In this document: positions 1 to 5,867 of the stretch, piece by piece
How positions within the stretch are numbered: the stretch's first letter is position 1
Layout of the letters: every line of letters starts with the position of its first letter
Assembly (NCBI RefSeq): GCF_027214025.1
Contig: NZ_JAPWHB010000002.1
Coordinates: 186,001-250,000, forward strand
Direction of reading: 5' to 3'
From: Parahoeflea alexandrii
GTDB taxonomy: Bacteria > Pseudomonadota > Alphaproteobacteria > Rhizobiales > Rhizobiaceae
Length of the DNA stretch: 64,000 nucleotides
Program-made: the position numbers and the translations under genes
The notes under the pieces: generated by a model
The model's input: the letters and a program-made list of their open reading frames with translations, nothing else
Told to the model about the DNA's origin: nothing
The model's database searches: none

Positions 1-464
1 CCGAGGCCCAACTGCATCTCGCGCGCCATCGACGCCCGGTGCTCAAGCGGCTCGGCCACGGCAATGGTAAGGCTTTCCTGCAGCGCTGCCTCGTAATAGA
101 ACCTGTGGGTGGCAGATTGCCGGAACCCGACGCCATCGTAAGGCGGAAAGATCGAGGGGTCGGCGGCATGGGAACTGATGAGCACGCGTCCCTGTGCATC
201 GCGAACGATGTAGGTCAGGAACTCCGAGTGCTCCTTCAGGTTGGCTATCCGCTGCGAAAGTCCTTCTTCCTCGCGGTCTATAATGTCGACAACCGCAAGC
301 GGCAGCAGCCTTTGAGCCGTTTCCTGCAACGCGGAATCGAACACCTCGTCCATTTCATGGCGCAGCAGCGTCGCAGTCACTGTCGCTGTTATGATCCAGA
401 GCAGTGTCACGCCGAGCCCGATGAGGATCGCCAGCCTTGCCTGAAGCGAACGGGGCGCCCTCAT
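1..464 (-). CDS. Sensor histidine kinase, N-terminal part (cut by window edge)
   Basis: The reading frame starts at ATG 464 and stays open to the left edge of the window, so about 154 N-terminal residues are visible. The protein begins with a short basic cytoplasmic end and one membrane helix (about residues 11-35), followed by a predicted periplasmic sensor segment rich in acidic and amphipathic helices. The HAMP, dimerisation and ATPase domains would lie outside the window. The ATG overlaps the stop codon of the response regulator (ATGA at 461-464), so the two are co-transcribed and translationally coupled. This pairing is the basis for the kinase call: the visible part alone carries no kinase motif. 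It is likely the QseC/PmrB type with a small periplasmic loop. The sensed signal cannot be read from the sequence. Confidence 0.8.
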   Translation of the reverse strand, partial: MRAPRSLQARLAILIGLGVTLLWIITATVTATLLRHEMDEVFDSALQETAQRLLPLAVVDIIDREEEGLSQRIANLKEHSEFLTYIVRDAQGRVLISSHAADPSIFPPYDGVGFRQSATHRFYYEAALQESLTIAVAEPLEHRASMAREMQLGL

Positions 465-1120
465 GTGGTCCCCAGCCGGTAGCCGAGGCCCCGCTCCGTC
501 TCGATCACGGAATGGCCGAGCTTCTTGCGCAGGCGGCTCACATGCACCTCGATCGCGTTGCTGTCGATCTCGGTGTCGAAGGAATAGAGCCGCTCTTCAA
601 GCTGCGCCTTGGAAAGCAGCTGCCCCGGACGCTGAACGAAGGCCTCGAAGAGCACCCATTCGCGCGCCGTCAGCGGCACCGCGCGGCCGGTCTTGCGCAC
701 GCTGCGGGCGGCAAGATCTATCTCGAGGTCCCCGAGCCTGATGATGGGATTCGGATTGCCGCTGTAGCGCCGGGCGACGGATCCGATGCGCGCGGACAGT
801 TCCGCAAGGTCAAACGGCTTGACCAGATAGTCATCCGCGCCGGCGTTCAATCCCTCGATCCGGTCGGAAACCTGATCAAGCGCTGTCAGAATGATGACGG
901 GCGTCACATCGCCCTTGGAGCGAAAGGTCCTGAGAAAGGGAATGCCGCGCCCGTCCGGAAGCATCAGGTCGAGCAGCACCAGATCGTAGGCTGCAACCGC
1001 GACGGCGTCGCTCGCCTCGTCAAGCCGCTTGACCCAATCGAGCGAATGGCCGTCGGCGGCAATCTGGTCCCGCACGGCGGAGCCCAGAACCGTGTCGTCT
1101 TCAATCAGGAGTATGCGCAT
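461..1120 (-). CDS. OmpR/PhoB-family response regulator (QseB/PmrA-like)
   Basis: A two-domain DNA-binding response regulator of 219 residues. The receiver domain (about 1-115) has the acidic pair in LLIEDD, the phosphoacceptor Asp51 in LLDLMLP, and the conserved Lys in the YLVKPF loop. The C-terminal winged helix (about 125-218) ends in VHVSRLRKKLG and RGLGYRL, typical of the OmpR/PhoB effector domain. I chose ATG 1120 because the receiver fold begins MRILLIEDD; in-frame starts further upstream would add an unrelated tail. It is coupled to the kinase gene by a 4-base overlap. It is divergent from a PepSY gene, and tandem CTGACG/CTGAAG boxes in the divergent region and before two further genes are likely its binding sites. 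Its target set probably is the neighbouring flavin electron-transfer genes (inference). Confidence 0.93.
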   Translation of the reverse strand: MRILLIEDDTVLGSAVRDQIAADGHSLDWVKRLDEASDAVAVAAYDLVLLDLMLPDGRGIPFLRTFRSKGDVTPVIILTALDQVSDRIEGLNAGADDYLVKPFDLAELSARIGSVARRYSGNPNPIIRLGDLEIDLAARSVRKTGRAVPLTAREWVLFEAFVQRPGQLLSKAQLEERLYSFDTEIDSNAIEVHVSRLRKKLGHSVIETERGLGYRLGTT

Positions 1121-1162: not shown

Positions 1163-1180
1163 CTGACGGCAAACTGAAGC
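1163..1180 (+). promoter_or_regulatory. Putative response-regulator box 1
   Basis: CTGACGGCAAACTGAAGC. Two hexamers (CTGACG, CTGAAG) repeat head to tail with an 11-bp period, which is how OmpR/PhoB-family dimers usually bind. The box ends 81 bp before the start codon of the PepSY gene at 1262. The same 18-mer with one or two changes recurs at 1594 and 2129, and a variant lies on the other strand at 1195. Confidence 0.65.
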
Positions 1181-1194
1181 ACCACGGTGTCCAT

Positions 1195-1211
1195 GTTCAG
1201 CCCGCCGTCAG
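1195..1211 (-). promoter_or_regulatory. Putative response-regulator box 2 (autoregulatory)
   Basis: Read on the minus strand this is CTGACGGCGGGCTGAAC, the same CTGACG-N5-CTGAA layout as the three plus-strand boxes but less well matched in the spacer and last bases. It lies 74 bp before the response regulator start codon, so it fits positive autoregulation of the regulator/kinase operon (inference). Confidence 0.5.
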
Positions 1212-1261
1212 CTTCGGGGCGCAGATGAGCCTTCAAGATTCTACTACAGGGAGTATGGAGT

Positions 1262-1537
1262 ATGAGAAAGTCACTGGCCATTCTGTTTCTTTTCACGTCG
1301 CTTGGCGCCACCGGCCTGGCACGCGCCGAGGACGATGATTGCGCCGTGCCTATGGCGCAATGGCAGCCGCGCGAAGCGGTTCAGCGCGTGGCAGCGGAAC
1401 AGGGCGTGACCGTCCGCAGGATCAAGATTGATGACGGCTGCTACCAGATCAAGGGCCGCGACGCATCAGGGCGGAAGGTCGAGATCAAGGTCAATCCGCA
1501 GACGTTGGAAGTCATTGAAATCGAATATGACGATTGA
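1262..1537 (+). CDS. Small exported PepSY-domain protein
   Basis: A 91-residue protein with a signal peptide (about 1-22, ending ARA before EDDD) and one PepSY-like domain covering the rest: an amphipathic helix (REAVQRVAAEQG) followed by strands (VRRIKIDDGCYQIKGRDASGRKVEIKV split over two strands) and a C-terminal strand (VIEIEYDD). PepSY domains are found in secreted or membrane proteins and often occur beside two-component systems and membrane electron-transfer proteins. Two Cys residues (near 28 and 60) could form a disulfide in the periplasm. A GGAG sequence precedes the ATG. The gene is divergent from the response regulator gene and has a regulator box 81 bp upstream, so it likely belongs to the same regulon. 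The biochemical role is unknown; modulation of a sensor or a redox partner is possible. Confidence 0.85.
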   Translation: MRKSLAILFLFTSLGATGLARAEDDDCAVPMAQWQPREAVQRVAAEQGVTVRRIKIDDGCYQIKGRDASGRKVEIKVNPQTLEVIEIEYDD

Positions 1538-1593
1538 GGCCTTGAGGAGTGCCGACGCTGTTGCGCCGCACTCCTTGGTCTGCAGTTTTGTTC

Positions 1594-1611
1594 CTGACGC
1601 CAAGCTGAAGC
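1594..1611 (+). promoter_or_regulatory. Putative response-regulator box 3
   Basis: CTGACGCCAAGCTGAAGC, matching box 1 at 16 of 18 positions. It ends 78 bp before the ATG of the Asp-rich protein gene. A second partial copy lies just downstream on the opposite strand (GGGCGTCAGG at about 1624-1633), forming a 9-bp inverted repeat with the start of this box. Confidence 0.65.
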
Positions 1612-1689
1612 AGAAAGTCTCCGGGCGTCAGGAAACGATAAGGCCCAGGGACGAGGTTCCGGGTGTCGATCAAACCACAGGAGACACCC

Positions 1690-2034
1690 ATGAAGACAAC
1701 CCTTGCCATTCTGACCGCAACCACCGCGCTTGCCGCACTCCTCGCGATCCCGGCAGTCGGCGCGGTCCACTCCGGCCGCACCGGCGATTCCGGCCAGTTG
1801 ACAGCGATGGATAACGCCTCGCCCAACGAACATGGCTATCTGCTCGCCAGCAATGACGACGATGATCACCGGTCAAAGGCCCGATATCGTTCGGATGATG
1901 ACGACGACGATGATGAAGATGACGACGATCATCGCGGCCGGGCAAGCGCAAATCCTGCTCCCGCCGGCTCCGTCTCGCCCCCCAACAACGGTCTCTTCGA
2001 TACCGGCGCGGCATCGCAGGTTCAGGTGAACTGA
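1690..2034 (+). CDS. Exported Asp-rich acidic protein
   Basis: A 114-residue protein of unknown family. Residues 1-25 form a clear signal peptide (basic MKTT, then an Ala/Leu-rich core ending VGA). The mature part is low in complexity: one run of four Asp at about 56-59, a second run of twelve residues that are all Asp except one Glu at about 69-80, each followed by His/Arg (DDHRSK, DDHRGR), then a Pro/Ala/Ser/Asn tail. Such Asp clusters suggest binding of cations (Ca2+, Fe or other metals) or an unfolded acidic region; this is inference. The start was chosen at ATG 1690 after a CAGGAG ribosome site. A response-regulator box ends 78 bp upstream and a strong hairpin follows the stop, so it is probably a single-gene transcript within the same regulon. 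Confidence 0.75.
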   Translation: MKTTLAILTATTALAALLAIPAVGAVHSGRTGDSGQLTAMDNASPNEHGYLLASNDDDDHRSKARYRSDDDDDDDEDDDDHRGRASANPAPAGSVSPPNNGLFDTGAASQVQVN

Positions 2035-2060
2035 CCCGACCCTCGCGCTTGCCTCTCCTC

Positions 2061-2098
2061 AGCCCCGCCATCGTTTGCCGATGGCGGGGCTGCTTCGT
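2061..2098 (+). terminator. Hairpin terminator after the Asp-rich protein gene
   Basis: A 13-bp perfect stem (AGCCCCGCCATCG / CGATGGCGGGGCT) with a 5-nt loop, followed by a weak T-rich stretch (GCTTCGTTC). It separates the Asp-rich gene from the next boxed transcription unit. Confidence 0.75.
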
Positions 2099-2128
2099 TC
2101 CGACCATCGGTCGGCGGCCCGGCCAAAC

Positions 2129-2146
2129 CTGACGGCAAGCTGAAGC
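2129..2146 (+). promoter_or_regulatory. Putative response-regulator box 4
   Basis: CTGACGGCAAGCTGAAGC, the best consensus copy. It ends 79 bp before the ATG of the DUF2271 gene, the first gene of the three-gene electron-transfer operon. The nearly constant distance to the start codon in four units (74-81 bp) supports real regulatory sites. Confidence 0.65.
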
Positions 2147-2225
2147 GAAATCACGAGCTTGTTAAGGAAGGCATCAGGCGCACGGCCGATTGAAGCTTCA
2201 TCAGATCAACTCGTGGAGAAACAGT

Positions 2226-2696
2226 ATGAAATCGATCCTGGCCGCGCTTGCCATCACCACCGCGCTGACACTTCCCGCCACCGCCTGGGCACGGCCGGTG
2301 ACCATCGACACGACGCTGAAGAACTATGGCGGCAACGGCGCCTACCTGGCGATCTACGTGACCGACGCCAAGGGCGTCTACAAGGGCAGCCTCTGGATGG
2401 CCGGCAGCAAGTCGAAATACTACAAGCATCTGAGTGACTGGCAGCGCGCCACCGGCGGAAGCCTGTCCGAGATCAACGGAATCACCGGCGCCAGTGTCGG
2501 CTCGGGCCGCAAACTCTCGATCACCCTCAACCTCGCCGACGCGCTGTTTGACGCCGGCTACCAGGTGCATGTCGATGCCGCCGTGGAGGACATGCGCGAC
2601 AGCCCGTCCGAAGTGGTCGTCCCGCTCACAACCGCTGGCGCCGGCAAGGCAACACAAGGCCGCCGCTATATCGCTTCCTTCGCCTACAAGATGTGA
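2226..2696 (+). CDS. DUF2271 periplasmic protein, candidate flavinylated (FMN) carrier
   Basis: A 156-residue exported protein: signal peptide about 1-22 (ending AWA before RPV), then a DUF2271 domain with the usual LWMAGSKSKYYKHLSDW block (about 57-72). Residues 84-90 read NGITGAS. This resembles the flavinylation sequence used by ApbE transferases, (D)GxSGAT or variants, where FMN is attached by a phosphoester to the last Ser/Thr; here that is Ser90. DUF2271 proteins are known to occur with ApbE and PepSY membrane reductases, and both follow directly here. The start ATG 2226 fits the signal peptide; GTGGAG precedes it. The next gene starts at GTG 2693, overlapping this stop. A role as FMN-bearing electron carrier outside the cytoplasmic membrane is inference but well supported by context. 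Confidence 0.85.
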   Translation: MKSILAALAITTALTLPATAWARPVTIDTTLKNYGGNGAYLAIYVTDAKGVYKGSLWMAGSKSKYYKHLSDWQRATGGSLSEINGITGASVGSGRKLSITLNLADALFDAGYQVHVDAAVEDMRDSPSEVVVPLTTAGAGKATQGRRYIASFAYKM

Positions 2697-4918
2697 GTGC
2701 AACCACGATGATCCGCTCCCTGCACAGATGGCCAGGCCTCGTCGCCGCCGCGCTTCTTCTTGTTCTCAGCCTGTCGGGCGCCGTCCTGTCGGTCTTTCCG
2801 GCACTCGAGACGGTGACGGCGCCTGCGCAGACGGAGGCCGGACTCACCGTCGCTGACCTGACAGCCCGGGTTGTCGCCACCCATCCCGGTGTCGAGCAGA
2901 TCAAGCGTGCGCCATCGGGGCGGATCACCGCCTACTGGTTTGACAATGGTACGCCGGGAGCTGCCGTTGTCGACCCCACGACCGGCCTCGATGCCGGTTC
3001 TGCCGACGCATCGGCCGTCGAACGCTGGATGAAAAACCTGCATCGGTCGCTCTTTCTCGATGACACAGGACGGATTGTTGCGGCCATCGGAGCCGGCGCC
3101 ATGCTGGTCCTGGCCCTTTCCGGAACGGCACTCGTTGTCCGGCGTACCGGCGGTTGGCGCCGGATATTCGCCCCCCTGAAAGGCCCCCTGTCCGGCCGGT
3201 TGCATGTGGAGATCGCCCGGCTCTCCGTCGCAGGGCTGCTGCTGTCTTCGGTGACCGCCCTGTGGATGACGGCATCGACATTCGGGTATCTGCCGGAAGG
3301 CAATGTGACCCCGCCGGTTCCCGATACGGTCAGTGGTGTGAGCGGTTTTGCGGTCACGGACATTCAGGCCCTGCGCACCACGCCGCTGTCGGCGCTGCGG
3401 GAACTGACTTTCCCCTATCCGGACGATCCGACCGACGTCTATACGCTGAAAACCGATGCGGGACAGGGCTACATCGACCAGGGAACCGGCACTCTGCTTG
3501 CCTGGACCGAGCCTGGCCTGTGGGACCAGGTATCGGAAACCATCTACATGCTGCACACCGGCCAGGGTGCCGCGACACTCGGCCTTCTGCTCGGATTGAT
3601 GGCGCTCGGCGTGCCGTTGATGGCGGTGACAGGCATAATCGTCTGGGTGGCCGGACGCCGCGCCCGGCCAAGGCTGCGCGGAAACGCTACTGCTGGCCAG
3701 GCCGATACGGTGCTGCTCGTGGGCAGCGAAGGCGGCAATGTCTGGGGCTTTGCCGCTACACTCCAAGCAGCCCTGACTGCCGCGGGTCAGAAGGTTCATG
3801 CGGCCCCCATGTCGGCATTCGCGCCCGATCGCTACACGCAGGTGGCCCGCATCATCGTCCTCGCCTCAACCTACGGCGATGGCGTGGCGCCCGCCTCGGC
3901 GAAGGGGTTTCTCGACCGCCTTGCCGCCCTGCCCGCGCCCCCGGCCATGCCGCTGGCGATCCTCGGGTTTGGCGACCGCAGTTTTCCTGATTTCTGCGGT
4001 TATGCAAGGCAGGTGGAGCGCGCTGCCGAAGCGAAGGGCTGGACCACGTTTCTGCCAATGGACACGGTCAACCGCCAGTCGCCGCAGGATTTCGCCCGCT
4101 GGGGCCGATTGCTCGGTGCGGCCTTGAACATGCCTCTGGAACTCGACCATCAGCCGGTGGCGCCGAAGACCTCCGCACTCACGCTGGTCTCGCGCCGCGA
4201 CCATGGCGCCGAGGTGCAGGCCCCGACGGCAATCCTGCGCTTCGCCCTGCCGCATGTACCCGTCTGGCGGCGACTGACCGGGCTTGGCGTCTCCCGCTTC
4301 ATGGCGGGTGACCTGCTCGGGATAGTGCCCGCAGGATCACCCGTGCCGAGGTTCTATTCGCTGGCTTCAGGCGTGAAGGACGGCTTTGTGGAAATCTGTG
4401 TCCGCAAGCATCCCGGCGGCCTGTGTTCCGGACAGCTTCTCTCGCTGGAGCCGGGAGAGGTCATCCAGGCCTTCATCCGTCCCAATCCGGGGTTCAGGCC
4501 GGTTCGAGGCAAGAAGCCCGTCATCCTGATCGGCGCCGGCACCGGCATCGGTCCGCTGGCCGGCTTCGCGCGGGCGAACACAAGGCACCGGCCGATGCAT
4601 CTGTGGTTTGGCGCCCGCCACCCCGACAGCGATCTTCTCTATCGCCCCGAGCTCATCGATTGGCACACCGAAGGAAGGCTGACCTCGGTTGCCGCAGCCT
4701 TCTCCCGGACGGAAGCGCGCACCTATGTCCAGGACATCCTGCGCCGCGACCGGGCCAGGGTTGCGCGGCTGATCGCCAATGGCGCACAGGTTCTGGTCTG
4801 CGGTGGCCGCGACATGGCCGCAGGCGTTGCCGAAGCGATGACCGACATCCTGGCTCCGCAGGGCCTGACCCCTGCCAAGCTGAAATCGGAGGGACGATAT
4901 GCCGAAGACGTTTACTGA
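2693..4918 (+). CDS. PepSY membrane domain fused to flavodoxin and NADPH-dependent reductase
   Basis: A 741-residue fusion (or 736 if ATG 2708 is used). Residues 1-330 are a PepSY-associated membrane domain with about four membrane helices. Residues 335-485 are a flavodoxin-like FMN domain (TVLLVGSEGGNVWGF, STYGDGVAP, GFGDRSFPDF). Residues 490-741 resemble cytochrome P450 reductase or sulfite reductase flavoprotein: RFYSLASG near 553 (FAD), GGLCSGQL near 575, GAGTGIGPLAGF near 614 (NADPH), VLVCGGRDMA, and a terminal GRYAEDVY. The layout suggests that cytosolic NADPH electrons pass through FAD and FMN into the membrane part and on to a periplasmic acceptor, here probably the DUF2271 protein. 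It overlaps the previous stop by 4 bases and the apbE start by 20 bases, showing tight coupling. The final electron acceptor is unknown. Confidence 0.88.
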   Translation: MSATTMIRSLHRWPGLVAAALLLVLSLSGAVLSVFPALETVTAPAQTEAGLTVADLTARVVATHPGVEQIKRAPSGRITAYWFDNGTPGAAVVDPTTGLDAGSADASAVERWMKNLHRSLFLDDTGRIVAAIGAGAMLVLALSGTALVVRRTGGWRRIFAPLKGPLSGRLHVEIARLSVAGLLLSSVTALWMTASTFGYLPEGNVTPPVPDTVSGVSGFAVTDIQALRTTPLSALRELTFPYPDDPTDVYTLKTDAGQGYIDQGTGTLLAWTEPGLWDQVSETIYMLHTGQGAATLGLLLGLMALGVPLMAVTGIIVWVAGRRARPRLRGNATAGQADTVLLVGSEGGNVWGFAATLQAALTAAGQKVHAAPMSAFAPDRYTQVARIIVLASTYGDGVAPASAKGFLDRLAALPAPPAMPLAILGFGDRSFPDFCGYARQVERAAEAKGWTTFLPMDTVNRQSPQDFARWGRLLGAALNMPLELDHQPVAPKTSALTLVSRRDHGAEVQAPTAILRFALPHVPVWRRLTGLGVSRFMAGDLLGIVPAGSPVPRFYSLASGVKDGFVEICVRKHPGGLCSGQLLSLEPGEVIQAFIRPNPGFRPVRGKKPVILIGAGTGIGPLAGFARANTRHRPMHLWFGARHPDSDLLYRPELIDWHTEGRLTSVAAAFSRTEARTYVQDILRRDRARVARLIANGAQVLVCGGRDMAAGVAEAMTDILAPQGLTPAKLKSEGRYAEDVY

Positions 4919-5867
4919 TCTCACACGCCACGCGCTCAATGGCGAGACCATGGGTACGCGCTGGTCCGCGCTGTTTCACAAGCCCGCCGATTTCGACGTG
5001 GCCCCGGTTGCCGCCGCGATGGCGGCGGCGGTGAACGAGGTCGACCGGCAGATGTCCACCTGGAAGCCCGACAGCGATCTGATGCGCCTGAATGCCGCGC
5101 CGCCCGGTGTCTGGGTCGAGTGCCCAGAACATCTGATGATCGTGCTGGAGACCGCTATTTCGATTGGCCGGGCTTCCGGCGGAGCCTTTGACATTGGCGT
5201 CGGCGATGCGGTGTCGGCCTGGGGCTTTGGCCCTGCGACTGCGGATCCGGGCCGTATTCAGGCCGCCCTGTCTGAACCCAGACGCCTGGCGCACGATATC
5301 CTGGAGCTAGACCTGTCGGGACGCCGCGTGCGCAAGAGCGCTCCGGTCACTTTGGACCTGTCAGGCATTGCCAAGGGGTACGGTGTAGACCGCCTGACCG
5401 ATGTCGCGAGGCGATTTCAGATCTCCGACGCGCTGCTGTCCATCGATGGAGAATTGCGGGGGATCGGCCTCCAGCCCGATGGCTCGCCCTGGTCGATCGC
5501 GATCGAGGACCCTGATTACTCGGCACGCAAGGCAATGGCGATCGTCGCCCTGGAGGATGCCGCTGTCGCCACCTCGGGTGATTACCGGCACTGGATTGAC
5601 GTCGGCGGCAAGCGGTTGTCCCACACCATGGACCCTTCCCGCGGCGGACCGCTGGCCCGGTCGCCTGCTTCGGTCACCGTATTTGCCGAGACCTGCATGG
5701 CGGCCGATGCCTGGGCAACGGTGCTGATGGTCAAAGGCAGCAGCGAAGGCGTCGAGCTGGCACGTCAGATGCGGCTGAGCGCCCTGTTTGTCGAGCGCGA
5801 CGGCAATGGTCTGCGTCAAACACCGGTCGGGCCACTGTTCGAGCCCGCTGACCGCACCCAGGAGTAG
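4899..5867 (+). CDS. apbE: FAD:protein FMN transferase ApbE
   Basis: A 322-residue ApbE-family enzyme, which uses FAD to attach FMN covalently to Ser/Thr of target proteins with Mg2+. Family blocks are visible: NGETMGTRW (14-22), the TAISIGRASGGAFDIGVG segment split around residue 90, LDLSGIAKGYGVDRL (about 152-166), SIDGELRGIG (about 182), TSGDYRHW (about 225), HTMDPSRGGP (about 241), and CMAADAWATVLMV near the end. The usual GG(E/D/N) block reads DGELRG here. No lipobox or clear signal peptide is seen at the chosen start, so it may be cytoplasmic or exported by another route; export is usual for targets outside the membrane. It is the last gene of the DUF2271/PepSY operon, whose first product carries a candidate flavinylation motif. 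Confidence 0.93.
   Translation: MPKTFTDLTRHALNGETMGTRWSALFHKPADFDVAPVAAAMAAAVNEVDRQMSTWKPDSDLMRLNAAPPGVWVECPEHLMIVLETAISIGRASGGAFDIGVGDAVSAWGFGPATADPGRIQAALSEPRRLAHDILELDLSGRRVRKSAPVTLDLSGIAKGYGVDRLTDVARRFQISDALLSIDGELRGIGLQPDGSPWSIAIEDPDYSARKAMAIVALEDAAVATSGDYRHWIDVGGKRLSHTMDPSRGGPLARSPASVTVFAETCMAADAWATVLMVKGSSEGVELARQMRLSALFVERDGNGLRQTPVGPLFEPADRTQE

Follow-up and report, generated by a model that had tools for sequence, protein, structure and literature searches.

The 64-kb window analysed here (the whole stretch of DNA, in whose positions all coordinates below are given) contains three composite operators of 49 bp, CTGAM-N6-CTGAM-N17-KTCAG-N6-KTCAG, each made up of a forward box and a converging reverse box. 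We predict, with a probability of roughly 85%, that these three sites are the operators of the OmpR/PhoB-type response regulator encoded at 461-1120, bound by two dimers head to head and activating both the regulator's own gene and a set of flavin electron-transfer genes.

The 18-mer CTGACGNCAARCTGAAGC occurs exactly at 1163-1180, 1594-1611 and 2129-2146 on the plus strand, upstream of the genes for a PepSY, an Asp-rich and a DUF2271 protein, just as an earlier sequence-only reading of this DNA had it, and the window holds these three copies alone at up to three mismatches. Shuffled windows contained 0.30 such matches on average and reached three in 1 of 100 shuffles, which bears out that reading's view that the agreement is unlikely to be accidental. 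All three forward boxes consist of CTGAM-N6-CTGAM, i.e. the paired hexamers 11 bp apart already described, and lie 81, 78 and 79 bp from their start codons, with a minus-strand copy at 1211-1194 (CTGACGGCGGGCTGAACA) 73 bp from the regulator start; the distances first put forward were 74-81 bp. This last copy, taken at the time for a weak box before a unit of its own, is indeed present, with four mismatches to the 18-mer and both CTGAM half-sites intact, but turns out to be the partner of box 1163 in a shared divergent operator. Boxes 1594 and 2129 have reverse partners at the same offset as in operator 1 (CTTATCGTTTCCTGACGC at 1642-1625 and CTGATGCCTTCCTTAACA at 2177-2160, respectively), and the four independent boxes of the sequence-only reading accordingly give way to six boxes in three head-to-head composites. 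Operator 1 (1163-1211) matches the composite exactly and is common to the divergent regulator gene on the minus strand and the PepSY gene on the plus strand; operators 2 (1594-1642, plus strand, before the Asp-rich gene) and 3 (2129-2177, plus strand, before the DUF2271 operon) each carry two mismatches. Every half-site in the forward boxes is CTGAC or CTGAA, and so are those in the reverse box of operator 1. Operators 2 and 3 depart from this in one half-site of the reverse box, the outer one in operator 2 (CTTAT) and the inner one in operator 3 (CTTAA), these degenerate partners keeping 7/8 half-site bases in the window genome.

The composite is largely specific to this locus within its genome. 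At up to three mismatches it occurs at four places in the whole 5.54-Mb genome, three of them being the window operators (0, 2 and 2 mismatches) and the fourth lying elsewhere with three mismatches; the control for the same search returned no match. Single boxes with at most two mismatches number eight in the genome, and the five outside the locus stand without a partner at offset 48 (score 1-3/8). A genome-wide dispersed repeat was considered and rejected on the same two counts, eight single boxes and four composites. Within the genus, the DUF2271 gene is present in 6 of 18 genomes; these same six have a regulator 81-100% identical to that of the window, all six carry the operators, and the best regulator identity in the other 12 is at most 49%.

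In the six orthologous same-genus loci, as well as in L034 (a second locus in G012, contig C242) and L039 (in G034), forward and reverse boxes stand head to head at a 5'-to-5' offset of 48. When offsets from 28 to 74 were scanned, the ten boxes of the six same-genus loci that stand before Asp-rich, DUF2271 or hemerythrin-like genes, chosen independently of the composite, all had their best partner at 48, as did L034 (at another site), L038 and L039. Over the same offsets, none of five near-perfect boxes found singly elsewhere (L040-L044, in other genomes) had a partner, and these were treated as chance occurrences. It should be noted that L034, with its two composites, comes from a genome whose listed contamination is 9% and may belong to another organism. 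An additional composite in a same-genus genome (L036:1877-1925) precedes a gene with a weak, sub-threshold hemerythrin match.

Across the order, the exact composite was sought in 397 genomes with the central gap left free from 2 to 32, and was found in 64; the reversed pattern, its gap likewise left free, gave no match in either these genomes or 385 genomes of the class, and a chance origin of the composite was rejected on this ground. The loci examined among the matches listed contain 66 distinct sites (the list has two more, one of 61 bp and one of 49 bp, besides further copies of sites already counted), and their total lengths fall at 49 bp (42 sites), 39 bp (13), 48 bp (2), 50 bp (1) and 57-63 bp (8), with no other length between 34 and 64 among them. 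A gene for a response regulator, a histidine kinase, a PepSY, a DUF2271 or a PepSY_TM protein borders 62 of these 66 listed sites: 45/45 at 48-50 bp, 8/8 at 57-63 bp and 9/13 at 39 bp, the remaining four of the 39-bp class being bordered by genes none of which was recognised as part of the system. Since the neighbour profiles derive from the proteins of the window, every family member among regulators or kinases will match them, and the regulator label is correspondingly broad. With all collections pooled, including the fixed-spacing scan, 173 of 188 sites among the matches listed border system genes. Some composite matches lie outside the alphaproteobacteria (e.g., in Nocardioides, Acidobacteria and Marinobacter), and several of the regulators concerned are long-branched in the tree described below; these matches are probably due to chance and were kept in the set of 188. 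In the class sample, five of whose 385 genomes are also in the order sample, the exact composite occurs in 22 genomes at 23 sites, with lengths of 39 (7), 37 (3), 40 (1), 46 (1), 49 (9, the window's included), 50 (1) and 62 bp (1), i.e. 21 of 23 at 37-40 or 49-50 bp. Helical phasing would produce length steps of 10-11 bp.

The motif was not used at all in a second approach, in which the regulator protein was searched in the same 397 genomes (E ≤1e-70) and an orthologue found in 75. Scored in the 30 best of these 75 loci (~3.6 kb each, the window's own included), a 49-bp composite with 15-16/16 half-site bases is present in 29, more than one composite in 13, and one within 250 bp of a regulator-gene end in 25; positions below 15 in these 30 loci score at most 10-13, and the one locus without a composite in its ~3.6-kb DNA is G190. 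Over all 397 genomes, regulator and exact composite occur together in 49, the regulator alone in 26, the composite alone in 15 and neither in 307; 11 of the 26 regulator-only genomes are among the 30 loci, and in 10 of these 11 the composite has at least 15/16 half-site bases. The scans of the complete genome and of related genomes that the sequence-only reading had called for thus come out in favour of the motif, which is infrequent in the genome, is kept in all six genus members with the same genes and accompanies the regulator orthologue across the order. Together, these comparisons of sequences support a regulon.

The operator length in turn tracks the protein. In a quick tree of 143 regulator rows (restricted to near-gapless, non-identical ones, with two entries for the window regulator), those of the 39-bp class form one clade (seven rows, SH-aLRT 99) and six of the seven of the 57-63-bp class another (SH-aLRT 99). 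Most of the 48-50-bp class (105 of 116 rows) also falls into a single group, though without strong support (SH-aLRT 89), and this class label needs six changes on the tree; judged from this phylogeny, spacing class follows regulator subclade. It is also important to consider what stands on the far side of the operator: a DUF2271 gene is the outward gene at 45 distinct 48-50-bp sites among the matches listed, and at 24 of these 45 a kinase gene has its 3' end on the opposite side, so that a second promoter cannot explain the reverse box.

Alignment of the sites further reveals a strongly conserved A 12 bp past the operator end toward the gene (position 61 from the composite start), with an information content of 1.97 bits before PepSY genes (n = 80), 1.71 before regulator genes (n = 90) and 1.67 before DUF2271 genes (n = 42), and A and T are more frequent in the bases after it; the A at 61 shows no conservation in 92 segments that lack a recognised outward gene. 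Its equivalents in the window are A1223, A1654 and A2189, and the mirror position T1151 (as read on the plus strand) for the regulator, and a putative -10 region of the PepSY promoter can be placed at 1222-1227 on the plus strand, around A1223. Between operator end and start codon there are 42-50 bp (regulator 42, Asp-rich 47, DUF2271 48, PepSY 50). If the conserved A belongs to a -10 element, a reading that the consensus promoter scan does not bear out, the reverse box nearer the gene would cover the -35 region, and we infer that this box, rather than the conspicuous forward one, occupies the place where RNA polymerase contact is to be expected.

Such an arrangement bears on how the sites should be interpreted. 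A reading as four independent single-dimer OmpR boxes, serving one promoter each and with functionless converging partners, has in its favour that the forward boxes are the best conserved in the window genome and lie 78-81 bp from the start codons; yet a partner at offset 48 was recovered for ten of ten boxes chosen without the composite and in 29 of 30 protein-selected loci, partners remain at DUF2271 operators without a divergent promoter, and the spacing is quantised, all of which makes this reading decidedly improbable. Repression by the regulator, with the proximal dimer blocking the -35 region, draws on the very overlap of the proximal box with the inferred -35 region, but we consider it unlikely in view of activation by BqsR with the same half-site geometry, of the positive autoregulation suggested for DbfR (PMC12714742) and of the promoter scan, which detected no consensus sigma-70 promoter, i.e. 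no consensus -35/-10 hexamers, at the three operators and thereby fits activator-dependent promoters.

The identity of the binding protein can be questioned on similar terms, since the genome encodes further OmpR-type regulators and binding by the adjacent one is a prediction: an unlinked OmpR-type protein, for instance, might occupy the operators. Against this, operator 1 lies at the adjacent regulator's own promoter, the composite tracks that regulator across the order, spacing class goes with regulator subclades (as in the 39-bp clade of the quick tree, SH-aLRT 99), and the 6-of-18 pattern in the genus is the same for the regulator and DUF2271, so that we regard binding by another protein as very improbable. 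A hairpin of RNA or DNA (a terminator, attenuator or mobile repeat) in place of a protein operator was rejected as a reading, and its chances appear negligible: the composite is imperfectly palindromic and positions 5, 6, 17 and 18 do pair somewhat above the between-locus background, but pairing of the spacer (positions 7-11 with 39-43) is seen in 28-49% of 148 sites as against a between-locus background of 33-41%, and the composites lie upstream of genes in spacing classes about one helical turn apart. Two head-to-head dimers of the adjacent regulator, acting positively, are thus the interpretation retained in what follows.

The regulator itself (219 aa, 461-1120, minus strand) contains Response_reg (1.6e-23) and Trans_reg_C (2.6e-20) domains, which place it in the OmpR/PhoB class, and together with the histidine kinase beside it confirms, by Pfam, that a two-component system adjoins the boxes as first claimed. 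Its NCBIfam equivalog scores stay below the cut-offs (PmrA, 202.4 vs. 330; QseB, 192.8 vs. 345). All three forward boxes have the BqsR/PmrA operator geometry of two direct half-sites at an 11-bp period (5 + 6 spacer), with CTGAC/CTGAA in place of the TTAAG/CTTAA half-sites. PmrA is described as reading bases through Asn188, Asn196 and Arg210; in an ungapped alignment Asn188, Val192 and Arg210 are kept and Asn196 is replaced by Arg. Among the regulators at 48-50-bp operators in which this position is occupied, 109 of 119 have that Arg. A link between Arg196 and the G of the half-site fits these alignments and falls short of proof. Two same-genus paralogues with Lys196 (L266 and L267) have CTTAAGGCAGGCTTAAG upstream, a PmrA/BqsR-type (CTTAAG-type) site, and nine of 12 same-genus paralogues have Arg196, three of which (L269, L270 and L272) are accompanied by CTGAC-type repeats; in the 0.4 kb before the gene, no such repeat was found for the other six, nor a CTTAA repeat for the paralogue with Asn196 (L268), which leaves the residue-196 argument for specificity a weak one.

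The histidine kinase (446 aa; 2CSK_N, HisKA and HATPase_c) occupies positions 1-464 on the minus strand and runs past the window; it is complete at L031:5124-6464. Downstream of the regulator-kinase pair on the same strand, L031:50-3273 holds ORFs that we take to be NADH dehydrogenase (nuo) genes. Across operator 1, the small PepSY_2 protein (91 aa, 1262-1537, plus strand; PepSY_2, 4.7e-26) has a start that by eye resembles a signal peptide, and the position of a PepSY-only gene within four genes of the kinase and regulator gives the locus the gene arrangement of a PepSY-TCS module. An ExxE motif directly follows the first transmembrane segment in 82 of 101 kinases (gappy and identical rows dropped). 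BqsS is reported to bind Fe(II) via the ExxE of its periplasmic domain, added iron gave no response in Vibrio cholerae DbfRS with its PepSY partner, a Caulobacter PepSY/DUF2271 operon is described as mattering for fitness in EDTA, and PepSY-like clusters have been tied to iron reduction and VIT1. Our best guess, made with moderate confidence from these analogies (the Caulobacter EDTA fitness, the PepSY/VIT1 literature and the kinase ExxE) and from the genes behind composites described below, is that the signal is iron or redox.

Behind operator 3, the DUF2271 gene (2226-2696, plus strand; Pfam) encodes a protein with TGAS, matching the flavinylation motif [S/T]GA[S/T] given for DUF2271 in PMC8238504. 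It is followed on the same strand by a 736-aa protein of PepSY_TM, flavodoxin and NAD-binding reductase domains (2708-4918; Pfam) and a 322-aa ApbE-family protein (FAD:protein FMN transferase; 4899-5867; Pfam, with an NCBIfam match below cut-off), so that PepSY_TM, ApbE and a candidate DUF2271 substrate stand in one cluster, as in PepSY-like flavinylated electron transfer. Elsewhere, same-strand runs behind composites contain 175 unassigned ORFs, 20 of which were scanned for families: six are cytochrome b561, one VIT1, one a ferric-reductase-type flavoprotein, one luciferase-like and one a solute-binding protein, and ten had no match. The PepSY run of L037 includes another ferric-reductase-type protein, L115 an FMN_bind/ApbE/NQR2-RnfD set (ApbE by profile), and L148 an EB_dh protein behind its composite. 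Efflux-type genes, comprising membrane-fusion and RND genes and an outer-membrane efflux protein, follow the composites of L107 (57 bp), L124 (39 bp) and L169 (49 bp).

The product of the gene behind operator 2 (1690-2034, plus strand) is an Asp-rich protein of 114 aa for which no Pfam match was found, with a signal-peptide-like start (by eye) and a conserved C-terminal tail, PAPAGxVxPPxNGLF...VQVN. By a loose pattern, this tail (near NPAPAGTVAPPxNGLFGxGAPPxVQVN) recurs in 50 distinct, mutually non-independent ORFs of the examined loci, and in some loci, e.g. L149, L152, L173, L209, L227 and L242, it is fused to a PepSY protein. Asp-rich and DUF2271 genes each have their own composite in L031-L033; in L035-L037 the two genes follow one another in a run that has its composite upstream of the Asp-rich gene. 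A perfect 14-bp inverted repeat with a 5-bp loop follows the window's Asp-rich gene in a terminator-like position (2060-2092); the terminator scan did not flag it.

In the mechanism we propose, the phosphorylated regulator would bind each operator as two head-to-head dimers lying on the same face of the helix; the direct repeat CTGAM-N6-CTGAM would take one of them and the converging KTCAG-N6-KTCAG the other. The gene-proximal dimer would end ~10 bp before the putative -10, i.e. over the -35 region, and because of this position most likely activates in the PhoB/PmrA manner, with help from the distal dimer. Operator 1, being common to the regulator-kinase and PepSY genes, would confer autoregulation, and operators 2 and 3 would bring in the Asp-rich protein and the DUF2271/PepSY_TM-flavodoxin-reductase/ApbE operon. 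The membrane protein would then relay electrons from NAD(P)H in the cytosol to the flavinylated DUF2271 protein in the periplasm, a route that plausibly serves to reduce iron or to maintain the redox state of the periplasm. For the secreted PepSY protein, the probable role is to tune the kinase, in the way that DbfQ tunes DbfS.

On a broader reading, which we put forward tentatively and at somewhat less than even odds, the locus would represent a widespread and apparently undescribed alphaproteobacterial PepSY-TCS regulon together with a phased operator class and an acidic-protein partner: a two-component system, possibly iron- or redox-sensing, would govern electron export of the flavinylated, cytochrome b561 and ferric-reductase types by way of head-to-head dimers at phased lengths (~39, 49 and 60 bp) that follow the regulator subclade, and a new secreted acidic family would supply the reductase with its metal or electron partner. 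Flavinylated PepSY/DUF2271 systems are common and the regulation mentioned in the accessible literature is by Fur, to which a two-component system would add a second, testable input. An operator of this precision can be used to look for further alphaproteobacterial targets, its head-to-head phased pairing makes cooperativity directly testable, and the predicted regulon links to an unnamed secreted acidic protein family. The accessible parts of the literature on tandem-site OmpR-type regulators did not yield a fixed head-to-head, helically phased pairing, and a description of the composite operator was not found in titles and abstracts among the matches listed, in which subscription journals are thinly covered.

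Among known systems, PmrAB/BasRS provides the best full-length PDB and NCBIfam match and aligns without gaps, with Asn188, Val192 and Arg210 in common; it differs in that the score remains well under the family cut-off, the base-reading Asn196 is Arg here, and the third half-site base is G here and T in PmrA, whose half-site is CTTAA. The remaining comparisons, like those above, draw on PMC12714742, PMC8238504, PMC4682146, PMC11845868, PMC12666569, PMC12004947, PMC4660055, PMC11334425 and PMC2909971. The PepSY-like flavinylation clusters of PMC8238504 likewise combine PepSY_TM, DUF2271 with [S/T]GA[S/T], ApbE, an NAD-binding domain and sometimes VIT1, but the regulation mentioned there is Fur repression, and neither "response regulator" nor "histidine kinase" occurs in the main text. 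The SK1/Orf1/RR systems with SHP cytochrome operons (PMC2909971) also join a periplasmic accessory protein to a regulator and a kinase, with a divergent promoter to an electron-transfer operon suggested; the cytochrome operon is of another kind, and the available text does not describe an operator. DbfQRS of Vibrio cholerae (PMC12714742) likewise encodes a small secreted PepSY protein next to its kinase and regulator, with positive autoregulation suggested, and PepSY-TCS modules of the same report show the opposite-strand arrangement in some species; the text consulted gives no operator for it, and DbfQRS controls the biofilm lifecycle, whereas the system described here has a divergent operator and a reductase operon. 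BqsRS/CarRS of Pseudomonas aeruginosa, finally, supplies the closest solved DNA-binding domain (CarR/BqsR), direct half-sites at an 11-bp period, a kinase whose periplasmic part carries ExxE, and adjoining PepSY genes (PA2658 and PA2659), like the PepSY gene adjoining the system here. Its operator, TTAAG-N6-TTAAG, is reported to require the 6-bp spacer, 5- or 7-bp spacers reducing expression to <10%; in contrast to that system, the half-sites here are CTGAM instead of CTTAA, the operators are predicted to hold two converging dimers at a fixed, phased spacing, and the targets centre on flavinylated electron transfer.
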